Source: Bifidobacterium sp. ESL0745 (GTDB taxonomy: Bacteria > Actinomycetota > Actinomycetes > Actinomycetales > Bifidobacteriaceae). Taken from it: a stretch of DNA of 64,000 nucleotides. Under the pieces are notes generated by a model. It did no database searches and had not been told where the DNA came from. It saw only the letters and a program-made list of their open reading frames with translations. The stretch is from NCBI RefSeq assembly GCF_029433335.1, contig NZ_JAQTHX010000001.1, positions 1,703,667 to 1,767,666 on the forward strand, given 5' to 3'. Positions 14,598 to 43,575 of the stretch are shown one piece after another; position 1 is the stretch's first letter; every line of letters begins with the position of its first letter. A program made the translations under genes and the position numbers.

Positions 14598-14670
14598 GGG
14601 GCTGTAGCTCAGTTGGTAGAGCGCTTCGTTCGCATCGAAGAGGTCGTGGTTTCGATTACCATCAGCTCCA
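14598..14670 (+). tRNA. tRNA-Ala (anticodon CGC)
   Basis: A 73-nt cloverleaf can be drawn: acceptor GGGGCTG with CAGCTCC, D-arm GCTC/GAGC, anticodon stem CTTCG/CGAAG with loop TTCGCAT (anticodon CGC, reading GCG), T-arm GTGGT/ACCAT with loop TTCGATT, discriminator A. The 3' CCA is not encoded. A terminator follows directly. Confidence 0.95.
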
Positions 14671-37494: not shown

Positions 37495-37770
37495 ATGACC
37501 GTTACCGTTTTCACCAAACCACGCTGCCCACAGTGCGAGGCGACCAAGCGTCAGCTGAACCGCGCGAACATCGCGTTTGAAACCGTGGACCTGACCGAAA
37601 ACCCCTCCACCCTCGAACAGCTCACGCAGGCCGGCTTCCGCCAGGCACCCGTCGTCATTACGCCCGACGCCTCCTGGAGCGGCTACCGCCCGGATCTCAT
37701 CAAGCAGCTCGCAACCAGCGCCGTCGAGACTTCCGCCGACGCCAAGACAGCGCAGACCGTTCTCGCCTAG
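37495..37770 (+). CDS. nrdH: NrdH, glutaredoxin-like redoxin
   Basis: The 91-residue protein has the redox motif CPQC (residues 11-14) in TVFTKPRCPQCEATKRQL, the cis-proline segment QAPVVI and the NrdH signature WSGYRPDLI. It reduces the class Ib reductase NrdE using thioredoxin reductase. The C-terminal 15 residues are Ala/Thr-rich. The start has GGAGG upstream. First gene of nrdH-nrdI-nrdE. Confidence 0.96.
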   Translation: MTVTVFTKPRCPQCEATKRQLNRANIAFETVDLTENPSTLEQLTQAGFRQAPVVITPDASWSGYRPDLIKQLATSAVETSADAKTAQTVLA

Positions 37771-37829
37771 TCGGAACGATGAACCAGACAATCCCAACCA
37801 ACCAGATGGATATTGGAAAGAAGGCGACG

Positions 37830-38522
37830 ATGGCGGACGCGAGTATCGATGACGCCACCATTGCACGCGTTAAATCCGGCGCACAAAGCGGAAGCACAAC
37901 GACCGCTCAAAGTGCCGCAGGCAATGACGCGGCCAGCCCACACGTCGAATCCGGCGCACAACGCGCGAACACGACAGCCAACCAAAACGCAGCAGACAGC
38001 ACGACCGATGCAGCCGATTCCGCCACAGCCTCTAAGCCTTACGACGACGAATGCATTACGCCGAGCGTCCCTGAGGCCAAAGCCAAGGGCGATCACATCG
38101 GTGCCGTGGTCTATTTCTCATCGGTTTCGAACAACACCGCACGCTTCATCGAAAGCTGCGGATTCCCCGACGAGGGCATCAATGTCTACCGCATCCCGCT
38201 GCGTCCAAAAGAGACGCCGCTGCAAGTGCGCGAACCGTACGTCCTCATCGTGCCGACTTACGGCGGCGGCAATATCCAGAAAGCACTGCTGCCGCAAATC
38301 CGCAAGTTTTTGAACGGACATAAGAACCGCAGCTTCATTCGCGGAGTCATTTCCTCGGGCAACAGGAATTTCGCCACGGCCTTCTGCGCCGCCGGCGACA
38401 TCATCTCCAAGAAATGCCATGTTCCGTTCATGTACAATTTCGAACTCTTGGGCACGCCGGACGACCAACGCCAGGTGCGCGAAGGCGTCCGCGACTTCTT
38501 CCTCGACGCGAAGAAGGAATAG
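37830..38522 (+). CDS. nrdI: NrdI flavodoxin-like activator with long N-terminal extension
   Basis: The 230-residue protein carries NrdI at its C-terminal 145 residues (GAVVYFSSVSNNTARFIESC; LIVPTYGGG; ISSGNRNFATAFCAAGD; FELLGTPDD). NrdI is a flavodoxin that supplies superoxide or electrons for assembling the radical cofactor of NrdF. NrdI proteins are usually 130-150 residues; here about 85 Ala/Ser/Thr/Asn-rich residues precede the core. The start at 37830 has GGAAAGAAGG upstream; an earlier ATG at 37779, nine bases after nrdH, is possible. Confidence 0.92.
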   Translation: MADASIDDATIARVKSGAQSGSTTTAQSAAGNDAASPHVESGAQRANTTANQNAADSTTDAADSATASKPYDDECITPSVPEAKAKGDHIGAVVYFSSVSNNTARFIESCGFPDEGINVYRIPLRPKETPLQVREPYVLIVPTYGGGNIQKALLPQIRKFLNGHKNRSFIRGVISSGNRNFATAFCAAGDIISKKCHVPFMYNFELLGTPDDQRQVREGVRDFFLDAKKE

Positions 38523-38735
38523 GACACGCAAGGGCGGTAATAGGACGCAGCGTCGTTGAAGTTTTCTGCCACTTGGCATTGGGCGACACGCATTTATGCG
38601 AAGCAAATCGGGCAAGTGGGTGTCTTTGCGAGTTAGCTGCCTTTAAAACTCGCCCGCTGAAAAATTTCAAAATTTTATATTTATTGACCAACCGACGCCG
38701 CAGCTTTGGCCGCGACACCTAGGAGAACAACACAA

Positions 38736-40922
38736 ATGGCTCTCAACGACACAGCGCTGAGCATGGACAACACCGTCGAAGACACCGGTTTCGACCCGGA
38801 GCACGACTACCACTCACTCAACGCGATGCTCAATCTCTACGACGAGGACGGCAAGATCCAGTTCGATAAGGACAAGGAGGCCGAGCGCGCGTATATCAAC
38901 ACCCACGTTGCCGAGAACACCAAGAAGTTCGGCTCCACCGCCGAACGTCTAAAGTATCTGATCGACAATCTGTATTACGACGGTAAGGTCTTCGAGCAGT
39001 ACACCCCCGAATTCCTGGACTCGTTCTACAAGCACGTCGAGGACTTCGGCTTTGAGTTCGAGACCTTCCTTGGCGCCTTCAAGTTCTACCGTTCCTACGC
39101 GCTGAAGACCTTCGACGGCAAGCAGTACCTCGAGGACTTCCCGCAGCGTTGCGCCGCCGTGGCACTTGAGCTGGCCGCCGGCGACGAAAAGCTCGCCGTC
39201 AAGTACGTCGACGAAATCCTTTCCGGGCGCTTCCAGCCCGCCACCCCGACCTTCCTCAATCTGGGCAAGGCGCAGCGCGGCGAGCCCGTCTCCTGCTTCC
39301 TCGTGCGCATCGAGGACAACATGGAGTCCATCGCCCGCGGCATCAACTCCGCCCTCCAGCTCTCCAAGCGCGGCGGCGGCGTGGCGCTGCTCCTGACCAA
39401 CCTGCGCGAGCAGGGCGCCCCGATCAAGCACATCGAGCACCAGTCCAGCGGCGTTGTGCCGGTGATGAAGTTGCTCGAGGATTCCTTCTCCTACGCCAAT
39501 CAGCTCGGCGCACGTCAAGGCGCGGGTGCCGTCTACTTGAACGCGCACCACCCCGACATCCTGCGCTTCCTCGACACCAAGCGCGAGAACGCCGACGAGA
39601 AGACGCGAATCAAGTCGCTGTCGCTCGGCGTCGTGATCCCCGACATCACCTTCGAGCTCGCCAAGCGCAAGGAGAAGATGGCCCTCTTCTCCCCCTACGA
39701 CGTCGAGCGCGTCTACGGCAAGCCGTTCGCAGATATTTCGGTGACCGAAAAGTACGATGAGATGCTTCACGACGACCGCATCCACAAGACCTACATCGAC
39801 GCCCGCGAGTTCTTCATGACCTTGGGCGAGGTGCAGTTCGAATCCGGATACCCCTACATCCTCTTCGAGGACACCGTCAACCGCGCCAACCCGATCGACG
39901 GCCGCGTCACGATGTCGAACCTCTGCTCCGAGATTCTGCAGGTTCAGGAAGCGTCCACCTACAACGACGACCTGAGCTACAAGCACGTCGGCAAGGACAT
40001 CTCCTGCAACTTGGGATCCCTGAACATCGCGAAGGCGATGGACGGCGGCTTGGCCGACCCGGTGGAGATCGCGATTCGCGCCCTGACTTCTGTCTCCGAG
40101 CAGACCCACATCGATTCCGTGCCGTCCATCAAGCGCGGCAACGAAGAGGGCCACTCCATCGGCTTGGGCCAGATGAACCTGCACGGCTTCCTCGCCCGCG
40201 AGCATATGTATTACGGTTCGGAAGAGGCGCTGGACTTCACCGACATGTACTTCATGACCGTGGCCTACCACGCCTACAAAGCCTCGCACAAGCTGGCCGT
40301 CGAGCGCGGCCACGCCTTTGCGACCTTCGACAAGTCCGATTACGCCAAGCCGGCCGGCCAAGGCAACTACTTCGACAAGTACACCGATGGCCGCCGCTCG
40401 CTCGACCCGAAGACCCAGACCGTGAAGGACCTCTTCGAGCGCTTCGGCATCCACATCCCCACCGTCTCCGATTGGGAGACGCTGCGTGACGAGATCCTGA
40501 AGGACGGCATCTACAACGAGTACCTGCAAGCCGTGCCGCCGACCGGTTCGATCTCCTACATCAACCACTCCACCTCCTCGATCCACCCGATCGCCTCGAA
40601 GATCGAGATCCGCAAGGAAGGCAAGGTCGGCCGCGTCTACTATCCGGCGCCGTACATGACCAACGACAACCTCGACTACTTCCAAGACGCCTACGAAATC
40701 GGCTGGAAGAAGATCGTGGACACCTACGCCGAGGCCACCCAGCACGTCGACCAGGGCCTTTCGCTGACCCTCTTCTTCCCCGCCGGCGTCACCACGCGCG
40801 AGCTCAACAAGGCGCAGATCTACGCTTGGCGCAAGGGCATCAAGACCCTCTACTACATCCGCATCCGCCAGCAGGCGCTCGAGGGCACCGAGGTCGAGGG
40901 CTGCGTCAGCTGCATGCTCTAA
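38736..40922 (+). CDS. nrdE: NrdE, class Ib ribonucleotide reductase large subunit
   Basis: The 728-residue enzyme reduces ribonucleoside diphosphates. Visible are the redox cysteine in [15 protein letters not shown], the radical-site motif [10 protein letters not shown] (Asn, Cys, Glu), the loop [15 protein letters not shown] and the C-terminal redox pair GCVSCML that NrdH reduces. The N-terminus lacks the ATP cone, as expected for class Ib. AGGAG lies ahead of the start at 38736. It is normally followed by nrdF; here an SDR gene and two hairpins intervene. Confidence 0.97.
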
Positions 40923-41215: not shown

Positions 41216-42013
41216 ATGACCAACAACACGTATGATTTCAACGGAAAAGTCGTTATCGTTACCGGCGGCGGCACCGGCATCGGACGGGCCGTCACACAAG
41301 GTTTTCTCGACAACGGCGCGACCGTGGTGGCTGTAGGGCTACGGCAAGGACCTCTTGACGAGACGGTGAACGGCTACGACAAAGGCCACACTCACATCAC
41401 CGACGTTTCCGACCACGCGCAGGTCAAGGGACTCGTACAATCGGTCGTCGCCGAATTTGGTCATCTCGACGTGGTTGTCTCCAATGCCGGCATCTTCGAG
41501 GGCGGCGAAATCGAACATGTCTCCGACGAGATGTGGCGCAAGCTCTTCTCAGTCAACCTCGACGGCTTGTTCTATCTGACCAAGGAAGCCTTGCCTTATC
41601 TGATCGAATCGCACGGCAACATCGTGGTCAACACCTCAGTTTCCGGCCTGTACGGCGACTGGGGGCAGACGGCCTACAATTCCACCAAACACGCCATGAA
41701 CGGCTTCGTGCGCTGCGTGGCCCTCGACTACGGCGCAAAGGGTGTGCGCATCAACGCATTCGCACCAAGTTTCATCGAAACCGACATCAACCAGGAAGTG
41801 TGGAGCGATCCCGAACGCATGGCGCCCTATACGCAGCGCGTCGCGCTGGAACGCACCGGCAGACCCGATGATTGCGTGGGGATTACACTGTTCCTGGCCT
41901 CCGACGACGCCGCATATCTGACCGGTTTGGTGGTCCCCGTCGATGGCGGCACCACGGCAGCGACCGGACAAGGACGCAATTCCTACGAAAACGACACCCG
42001 GTCTGCGCTTTAG
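41216..42013 (+). CDS. Short-chain dehydrogenase/reductase
   Basis: The 265-residue protein is a classical SDR: cofactor motif TGGGTGIGRA (residues about 17-26), NAG at the end of strand 4 (VVSNAGIFEGG), catalytic Ser in NTSVSGLYG, and YNSTK (Tyr, Lys). It oxidises or reduces an alcohol or ketone with NAD(P); the substrate is unknown. AAAGGAG precedes the start. Its place between nrdE and nrdF is unusual and no functional link is evident; it is bounded by a terminator upstream. Confidence 0.93.
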   Translation: MTNNTYDFNGKVVIVTGGGTGIGRAVTQGFLDNGATVVAVGLRQGPLDETVNGYDKGHTHITDVSDHAQVKGLVQSVVAEFGHLDVVVSNAGIFEGGEIEHVSDEMWRKLFSVNLDGLFYLTKEALPYLIESHGNIVVNTSVSGLYGDWGQTAYNSTKHAMNGFVRCVALDYGAKGVRINAFAPSFIETDINQEVWSDPERMAPYTQRVALERTGRPDDCVGITLFLASDDAAYLTGLVVPVDGGTTAATGQGRNSYENDTRSAL

Positions 42014-42261: not shown

Positions 42262-43575
42262 ATGACTTTCACCCCGCTTAATTGGAATCTCGTCGGTACG
42301 GACGCCGACACGGATCGCGATGCCTTCAACACCATGAGCGCGAACCTGTGGACGCCGGAACAGGTTTCGCTCGCCGATGACGCCGAGGACATGCGCGGGC
42401 TGAGCGAGACCGAACGGCTTGCGCTTGTCCGCATTTTCGCGGGGCTGTCCAGCGTCGAGTCCTTGCAGGCAGGCAGCGCGACCAGCGCCTTGAGCGCCGA
42501 TGCCGGCCAGGATGAAACTGGTACACGCCAAGCGGTACTGACCGCTATCGCATTCGGCGAATCAATACACACCAAGGCCTATTCGACGCTTATCGCCGAA
42601 CTTGGCAAGAATGCCGGTAAAACAGGCGGCGCACACAACACTGACGCCGGCAGTTACGCAAGTTCAATCGATTCCGCAACTGCAGACGACACCAAAAATG
42701 CCAATGATGCCGCTCAGTCCCCGTTCACATGGGTACAGCAGAACGAATCAATGCAGGAAAAACTAAGACTGCTCAATGACGCATATGCCACTGCCATCAA
42801 TGGCGCGGCCGCAGCTACCAATCGGGATAAAAATCCGGGTCCAAACCCAGATGCAACTGCTGATTCGGCAAACATTTCGTTGCCTACAGAGATTGCCGCA
42901 CCAAACGCTTTGGCCTCAGATTCCGCCAACGGCAATGGCGACGATTCTGCCGCCAGCCGTGTCCCCGACCTCGGAACCCTCAAGCGGCTTGCGACGGCGG
43001 TGCTTGCAGAAGCGCTGGTCGTTCAGTCCGGCTTCTATCTGCCAATGTGGCTTTCGAGCCACGGGACACTGACGAAATCTGCCGACATCATCCGTCTGAT
43101 CAATCGTGATATCGTCACTTCCAGCTCATACCTTGGCGCTGTATACCAACGCAAGCTTGACCCCCTCAATGACACCGCCCGCGAAACCATGCGCCAGTAC
43201 ACTTATGACCTTGCGAACAACCTGTATTTCTCCGAGGAAGATTACAGCTACACGTTGCCATATGCCGATCTGAGTCTTGAAGACGACACGGAAAAGTTCC
43301 TAAGCCATAACGCCAACAAAGCGCTCTCCTACTTGGGCTATCCGACCTTGTTCCCCGCTGAGATCAGCCAGCCGAACCCGGCCGTCATCGATGAACTCAA
43401 CGATATGGAATCACTGACGGACACGATCAAGTCCGGTGGCCTGTTCAGCGCCGGCGCGGGCTTTGCGTCGACCAATTCCGCGAGCGCAGCCGGGGCTCCG
43501 ACTTCCACGACCTCAACCGACACAACCGCCGACAACAAGGCCGAAGAAACCAGCGACGACGACTGGGATTTCTAA
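42262..43575 (+). CDS. nrdF: NrdF-like ribonucleotide reductase small subunit with missing metal ligands
   Basis: The 437-residue protein is homologous to class Ib R2 along its length (LVRIFAGLSSVESLQAG; LTAIAFGESIHTKAYSTL; VVQSGFYLPMWLSSHGTLT; NANKALSYLGYPTLFP) and ends in the NrdE-docking tail DDDWDF. Aligned by eye to canonical NrdF, the ligands are: Asp replaced by Glu66, Glu100 and His103 kept, Glu250 kept, but Glu of RDEAVH replaced by Ile284 and His by Ser287 (RDIVTSSSYLG). The radical tyrosine is Tyr107. Two low-complexity inserts (about residues 115-152 and 180-235) and a Ser/Thr/Ala-rich stretch before the tail lengthen it from the usual 320-340. Start at 42262 has GAAGGA upstream. 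Confidence 0.9.
   Translation: MTFTPLNWNLVGTDADTDRDAFNTMSANLWTPEQVSLADDAEDMRGLSETERLALVRIFAGLSSVESLQAGSATSALSADAGQDETGTRQAVLTAIAFGESIHTKAYSTLIAELGKNAGKTGGAHNTDAGSYASSIDSATADDTKNANDAAQSPFTWVQQNESMQEKLRLLNDAYATAINGAAAATNRDKNPGPNPDATADSANISLPTEIAAPNALASDSANGNGDDSAASRVPDLGTLKRLATAVLAEALVVQSGFYLPMWLSSHGTLTKSADIIRLINRDIVTSSSYLGAVYQRKLDPLNDTARETMRQYTYDLANNLYFSEEDYSYTLPYADLSLEDDTEKFLSHNANKALSYLGYPTLFPAEISQPNPAVIDELNDMESLTDTIKSGGLFSAGAGFASTNSASAAGAPTSTTSTDTTADNKAEETSDDDWDF

Follow-up and report, generated by a model that had tools for sequence, protein, structure and literature searches.

A conserved NrdF-like protein of bifidobacteria with an incomplete metal site, NrdFx, as a putative non-catalytic R2 subunit

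The window (viz. the whole stretch of 64,000 nucleotides of DNA that was analysed) contains a gene for an NrdF-like protein, referred to here as NrdFx, which has lost ligands of the R2 metal site as well as the Tyr of the C-terminal linker, is conserved in a family of related proteins, is under purifying selection, and is encoded in the same genome as an R2 protein of the class Ie type. From the comparison of these sequences it is probable that NrdFx represents an R2 without catalytic function (a pseudo-beta subunit), of class Ib origin, which has been kept as a subunit docking on NrdE after a class Ie protein took over the work of the reductase. No description of an NrdFx-like protein was found in the open-access literature searched, and a ligand-less NrdF is not described in the portions of PMC11846895 that were available.

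Residues and segments of NrdFx

The features of the gene and of the encoded protein are listed below, with frequencies referring to the 19 members of the NrdFx family.

42262..43575, + strand: nrdFx, encoding an NrdF-like protein of 437 aa with an incomplete metal site (PF00268, 147.6 bits; cut-off 33.6)
42457..42459, + strand: Glu66, replacing the Asp ligand of site 1 (Glu in 19/19)
42559..42582, + strand: stretch with Glu100 (Glu in 15/19, Ser in 1, Gly in 3), His103 (19/19) and Tyr107 (19/19)
42607..42717, + strand: low-complexity insert 1, residues 116-152, mostly predicted to be disordered, with weak constraint
42790..42969, + strand: low-complexity insert 2, residues 177-236, mostly predicted to be disordered, with weak constraint
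43009..43011, + strand: Glu250 (Glu in 11/19, Gln in 8/19)
43108..43122, + strand: Asp283 (kept), Ile284 (in place of a Glu ligand) and Ser287 (in place of a His ligand), from the alignment
43408..43554, + strand: linker, residues 383-431, rich in Ser, Thr, Ala, Gly and Asn and without Tyr or Trp, which replaces the catalytic linker HDFFSGSGSSY of other R2 proteins
43555..43572, + strand: NrdE-docking tail DDDWDF (kept in 19/19, with all six residues invariant)

The start codon of nrdFx is preceded by AAGGA. The R2 helical fold is predicted for the protein, the best fold matches in the structure prediction being class Ib R2 proteins, and its matches in PHROGs are to R2 families only; PADLOC gave no family, and the cut-off of NCBIfam TIGR04171 for class Ib R2 is missed (179.6 vs 355 bits). 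Class Ib R2 proteins have six metal ligands (Asp, Glu, His and Glu, Glu, His), whereas in NrdFx two of these are lost and the Asp is changed to Glu. The presence of Ile284 and Ser287 at the positions of the Glu and His ligands, and of Glu66 at that of the Asp, which was first claimed in a preliminary description made from the window alone, is confirmed by the alignment, and this pattern is not unique to the window copy: residue 284 is Ile in 15 and Leu in 4 of the 19 members, and both Asp283 and Ser287 are found in all of them. The residues which the same description had reported as kept (viz. Glu100, His103, Glu250 and Tyr107) are indeed present in the window copy, with Glu100 and Glu250 varying within the family as listed above, and its observation that the tail DDDWDF is kept holds for every member. 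Trp30 is likewise invariant (19/19). The conservation of Trp30, His103, Tyr107 and Asp283 could reflect retained redox chemistry or mere packing, and a metal ion may be bound in the Glu66/Glu100/His103 pocket of 15/19 members. At position 255 (43024-43026), a Tyr that is conserved in other R2 proteins is changed to Glu in 18/19 members and to Gln in the window copy; this Glu is a conserved new acidic residue, five positions past Glu250.

The characteristics shared by NrdFx with class Ib R2 (NrdF) are the predicted R2 fold, the docking tail, Tyr107, His103 and Trp30, and in some relatives nrdFx occupies the operon slot of the class Ib gene. However, the catalytic linker of class Ib R2 and its Tyr (the Y356 equivalent) are both lacking in NrdFx, which in addition has the two low-complexity inserts. 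With the class Ie R2 proteins (QSK and VPK) it shares the occurrence of ligand substitutions within an R2 fold, in genomes that also encode NrdI and NrdE. As was also stated earlier, the pattern of substitutions is a different one: at the three Glu positions, where class Ie proteins have QSK or VPK, NrdFx has Glu/Ser/Gly, Glu/Gln and Ile/Leu, and it is also without the second His, whereas the QSK proteins examined keep both His. Class Ie proteins carry a Tyr beside the site that becomes modified to DOPA, and a Tyr (Tyr107) is found in 19/19 NrdFx members. R2-like ligand-binding oxidase (R2lox) is a distant fold relative with a weak profile match, the cut-offs of NCBIfam PRK08326 being missed by NrdFx (19.8 and 19.4 bits vs 286 and 194). 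NrdFx in addition has the NrdE tail, a feature not known from these oxidases.

When the residues that are at least 95% conserved in 34 other R2 proteins (class Ib and class Ie) are considered, NrdFx has kept 53/107 of those in the core, 1/14 in the catalytic linker and 5/5 in the tail, and thus the part responsible for handing over the radical is gone and the part responsible for docking is kept. In one of these 34 reference proteins (from G103) the second Glu position is occupied by Ser, and the threshold of 95% tolerates one such row. This protein is the sole R2 found in G103 (locus L113) and a match in another frame is seen in the same stretch; its Ser is probably a local sequence error, and otherwise it would be another altered R2. 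The inserts and the linker of NrdFx vary widely in length and sequence across the members, many core residues are invariant in 19/19, and neither Tyr nor Trp is present in any of the 19 linkers.

According to the part of a review available to us (PMC8463856), every characterised class I R2 keeps an essential Tyr in its C-terminal tail, which passes the radical to the catalytic subunit. Due to the absence of this linker Tyr, ordinary R2 catalysis by NrdFx is very unlikely. The preliminary description had left a choice between a new cofactor-poor or mono-metal R2 and a pseudo-subunit, in which case another gene would encode the true R2. If NrdFx were a new R2 variant, which still drives NrdE from a mononuclear-metal or metal-free radical site, then the presence of Trp30, Glu66, His103, Tyr107 and Asp283 in 19/19 members and of an nrdI gene close by would be in keeping with it. 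However, the catalytic linker motif with its Tyr is gone from the whole family, Glu100 is lost in 4/19 members (being Ser or Gly), position 250 is Gln in 8/19, and each of the 12 carriers from the genus search described below also encodes a QSK R2. We consider a new catalytic variant to be highly improbable, and of the two interpretations it is the pseudo-subunit that is supported.

Occurrence of nrdFx and the selection acting on it

In the protein search, 7996 candidates were scored and 329 matches obtained, and the family members were drawn from the best 120 of these 329. Among these 120, 19 proteins (P0001-P0019), all with at least 407 bits, make up the NrdFx family, the next match being at 179 bits; the database name of an R2 (beta) subunit is borne by 12 of the 19. 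A search of 112 genomes of the genus revealed 12 with a degenerate R2 together with a second, stronger R2, which in all 12 is of the QSK type, and at least 11 of the 19 members appear to come from these carrier genomes. The nrdFx frame is open in 11 of the 12 and is interrupted in G083 by one in-frame TGA (codon 134). The gene was not found in the near relatives G012, G086 and G089, nor in the outgroup G013, all of which have nrdHIE and a QSK gene. Of the 15 genomes counted here to this Bifidobacterium clade, nrdFx is thus open in 11, interrupted in 1 and absent from 3.

In the tree based on NrdE, in which many nodes are weakly supported and from which G086 was left out, the carrier clade includes G089, and G012 branches beside G025 (75% support), and these positions suggest that nrdFx has been lost repeatedly within the clade. 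The placement of G086 in this clade rests on 97-98% identity of its QSK and NrdE pieces. In this genome (loci L116 and L074), nrdE, nrdI and neighbouring genes are in pieces and the end of the QSK gene is frame-shifted; these breaks may represent decay or sequencing error. In view of its absence from G012, G086 and G089 and of the in-frame TGA in G083, nrdFx is dispensable.

When 189 genomes of the bacterial family were searched with a profile, at least one further full-length NrdFx match, viz. in G131, was identified among the matches listed. In this genome each contig end (L132 and L133) carries an NrdFx piece together with a 600-base NrdE fragment, inside a repeat of at least 17 kb whose copies are 99.9% identical, and the genome additionally has complete class Ib and QSK genes of its own at other positions. 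The record behind P0003 (B. asteroides DSM 20089, BA20089_08675) is possibly a chimeric assembly, and given the repeat at both contig ends of G131, B. asteroides DSM 20089 is doubtful as a secure carrier of NrdFx; P0003 stays counted among the 19 members.

Pairwise omega values were calculated for 12 genomes (66 pairs, with the stop codon in G083 masked) as medians over the pairs with finite dS, and they are rough, since synonymous differences are high in several regions of NrdFx. These medians are 0.12 for residues 237-390 and for residues 417-437, 0.16 for both residues 1-40 and 41-115, and 0.56 for residues 391-425; for the inserts they are about 0.4, from only 21/66 pairs (insert 1) and 55/66 pairs (insert 2). 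In comparison, the values for the QSK R2 and for NrdE are 0.058 and 0.074. Under the codon model, omega for NrdFx is 0.112 over the 306 codons of core and tail; the C-terminal core has 0.070, the N-terminal core 0.135 and the linker 0.24, and the QSK R2 has 0.014. Fixing omega at 1 (three values of kappa were tried, and kappa was not optimised) worsens the fit by 2dL of 1220 for the core and tail and of 64.5 for the linker of 40 codons. It is clear that nrdFx is under purifying selection, which is looser than that on the working R2.

The weaker constraint in relation to the QSK R2 (0.112 vs 0.014), the losses in 3 and the interruption in 1 of the 15 clade genomes, and the high variability of the inserts and the linker in both length and sequence could be interpreted as showing that NrdFx is the product of a decaying class Ib nrdF pseudogene, perhaps still translated and without function. 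However, omega in the core and tail is far under 1, the frame is open in 11/12 carriers, and many core residues, together with all six residues of DDDWDF, are invariant in 19/19 members, and we regard a functionless pseudogene as improbable.

The gene neighbourhood, the second R2 and the origin of NrdFx

The genes and the structure located upstream of nrdFx in the window are as follows.

37495..37770, + strand: nrdH, glutaredoxin-like (TIGR02194, 91.2 bits; cut-off 85.75)
37779..38522, + strand: nrdI, flavodoxin, the only NrdI match in the genome, with a low-complexity N-terminal extension
38706..40922, + strand: nrdE, class Ib catalytic subunit, the only match in the genome (TIGR04170, 1138 bits; cut-off 750); coordinates are those of the ORF from its first start codon
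40929..41007, + strand: strong hairpin directly 3' of the nrdE stop codon (-41.4 kcal/mol, z -7.76)
41216..42013, + strand: short-chain dehydrogenase (SDR) gene between nrdE and nrdFx

The hairpin possibly ends the nrdHIE transcript or separates it from the part with the SDR gene and nrdFx; a 12-base pattern taken from its arms is matched in 3/135 loci, all three from the genome of the window. A scan for promoters and terminators gave sites no more numerous than in shuffled sequence, and the search of Rfam at gathering thresholds gave only a tRNA (14598-14670). The nrdI ORF has about 110 low-complexity residues ahead of the flavodoxin domain, and its true start may lie further downstream, or this clade may add disordered segments to several of its proteins. 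Relatives of the SDR gene are present in only some of the nrdFx regions examined. In 4/12 carriers (G090, G092, G025 and G093) nrdFx is located 70-135 bases 3' of nrdE, and in G002, G095, G075 and G103 the same slot after nrdE is occupied by a class Ib nrdF; the QSK gene itself follows nrdE in G014, G100, G101 and G008. In 5/12 carriers (G082, G083, G084, G087 and G091) nrdFx and nrdE are about 6 to 17 kb apart, and due to this gap the case for co-expression of the two genes is weakened; in the window, the two are separated by the strong hairpin and the SDR gene.

The preliminary description had recommended that the genome be searched for a second nrdF and for a class III NrdD. The former is present, although it belongs to the class Ie type, not to the canonical dimetal nrdF genes, and there is a single match each for NrdD, NrdE and NrdI. 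The second R2 gene is located on another contig (G000:C3:204821-205618; 280 bits), and in its product the three Glu positions are occupied by Gln, Ser and Lys, viz. the class Ie QSK pattern, with the Asp, both His and the Tyr kept; its presence supports the pseudo-subunit interpretation of NrdFx. In the QSK proteins examined, both His and the Asp are kept, and the linker Tyr is found in 19/20, the exception being the frame-shifted protein of G086. The available sections of PMC11846895 report DOPA formation by the QSK R2 of Gardnerella vaginalis, with which ribonucleotides can be reduced in vitro, and they give a count of genomes with a QSK R2, in which nrdE may sit with another nrdF or with none. 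Judging from its residues, the QSK R2 should be active in the organism of the window, and it is probably the metal-free subunit that does the work of the reductase.

According to the available part of PMC5535262, class Ib ribonucleotide reductase is present in most bifidobacteria, and NrdFx goes unmentioned there. The most likely ancestor of NrdFx is the class Ib nrdF of the nrdHIEF operon, with the trees and diagnostic sites giving mixed indications. In the AU test, p is 0.753 for the unconstrained tree, 0.356 for the placement of NrdFx inside Bifidobacterium class Ib and 0.182 for its grouping with QSK, and none of these is rejected. Since the NrdFx stem has a length of about 1.4-1.5 substitutions per site, long-branch effects are likely; two sequences (D_G083 and Q_G086) were dropped from one R2 tree. 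The diagnostic sites, of which 13 are class Ib-like, 7 QSK-like and 13 neither, lean towards class Ib. In G002, G095 and G075 of the genus and in G131 and G127 of a sister genus, a QSK R2 is encoded together with a class Ib R2 that is intact (ligands checked). In the latter two genomes (L134 and L135), the QSK nrdF has a second nrdI beside it, and a class Ib nrdI-nrdE-nrdF set is adjacent.

The role of NrdFx and its significance

Yeast Rnr4 is an R2 paralogue without metal ligands. NrdFx resembles it in being an R2 paralogue with a defective metal site, in a genome that also encodes a working R2 (here judged from residues), and differs from it in being bacterial, in occurring alongside a class Ie-type R2, in its absence from some near relatives and in its strongly kept docking tail. 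It is proposed tentatively that NrdFx may be a bacterial non-catalytic R2 of the Rnr4 kind, a regulator that would act either by docking on NrdE or by pairing with the metal-free class Ie R2. A more specific explanation, which overlaps with the one that we prefer, is that NrdFx is the counterpart of Rnr4 as a heterodimer partner that stabilises or activates the QSK R2. The predicted R2 fold and the working-type R2 (by residues) in the same genome agree with this, as does the fact that the R2 of yeast is an Rnr2-Rnr4 heterodimer (PMC4245953, available part). However, G089 and G012 are without NrdFx and yet encode a QSK R2 in which all key residues are present, and NrdFx is thus not obligatory for the QSK R2; further, the QSK R2 of G. 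vaginalis works in vitro, and no such partner is mentioned in the accessible part of PMC11846895. We regard this role as a heterodimer partner as rather unlikely.

In the explanation that we prefer, viz. that NrdFx is a non-catalytic subunit docking on NrdE, the order of events which we infer is that the metal-free class Ie (QSK) R2 would have become the working radical donor of the single NrdE, and that NrdFx would then have lost its metal ligands and the radical-handing linker, with the R2 fold and the NrdE-docking tail staying in place. NrdFx would bind NrdE by this tail, either by itself or in a mixed dimer with the class Ie R2 of which it forms the inert half, and would in this way tune how the aerobic reductase assembles or how active it is. 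It may do so by competing with the QSK R2 for NrdE, by pairing with this R2 or by helping assembly.

The radical site is what defines an R2 protein. NrdFx separates the binding of NrdE from the feeding of NrdE, as the site and the radical path are largely shed and the docking tail is kept. The naming of 12 of its 19 members as R2 (beta) subunits could mislead metabolic reconstructions. Within this one bacterial family a class Ie R2 occurs together with a class Ib R2 in some genomes, together with NrdFx in others and by itself in still others, so that the stages by which a metal-free reductase took the place of a metal-dependent one can be traced. If NrdFx does act as an Rnr4-like regulator of the kind proposed above, then it would be, to our knowledge, the first protein found to be dedicated to regulating a class Ie reductase, and it would provide a snapshot of a class Ib R2 that turned into a regulator once a metal-free R2 had replaced it.
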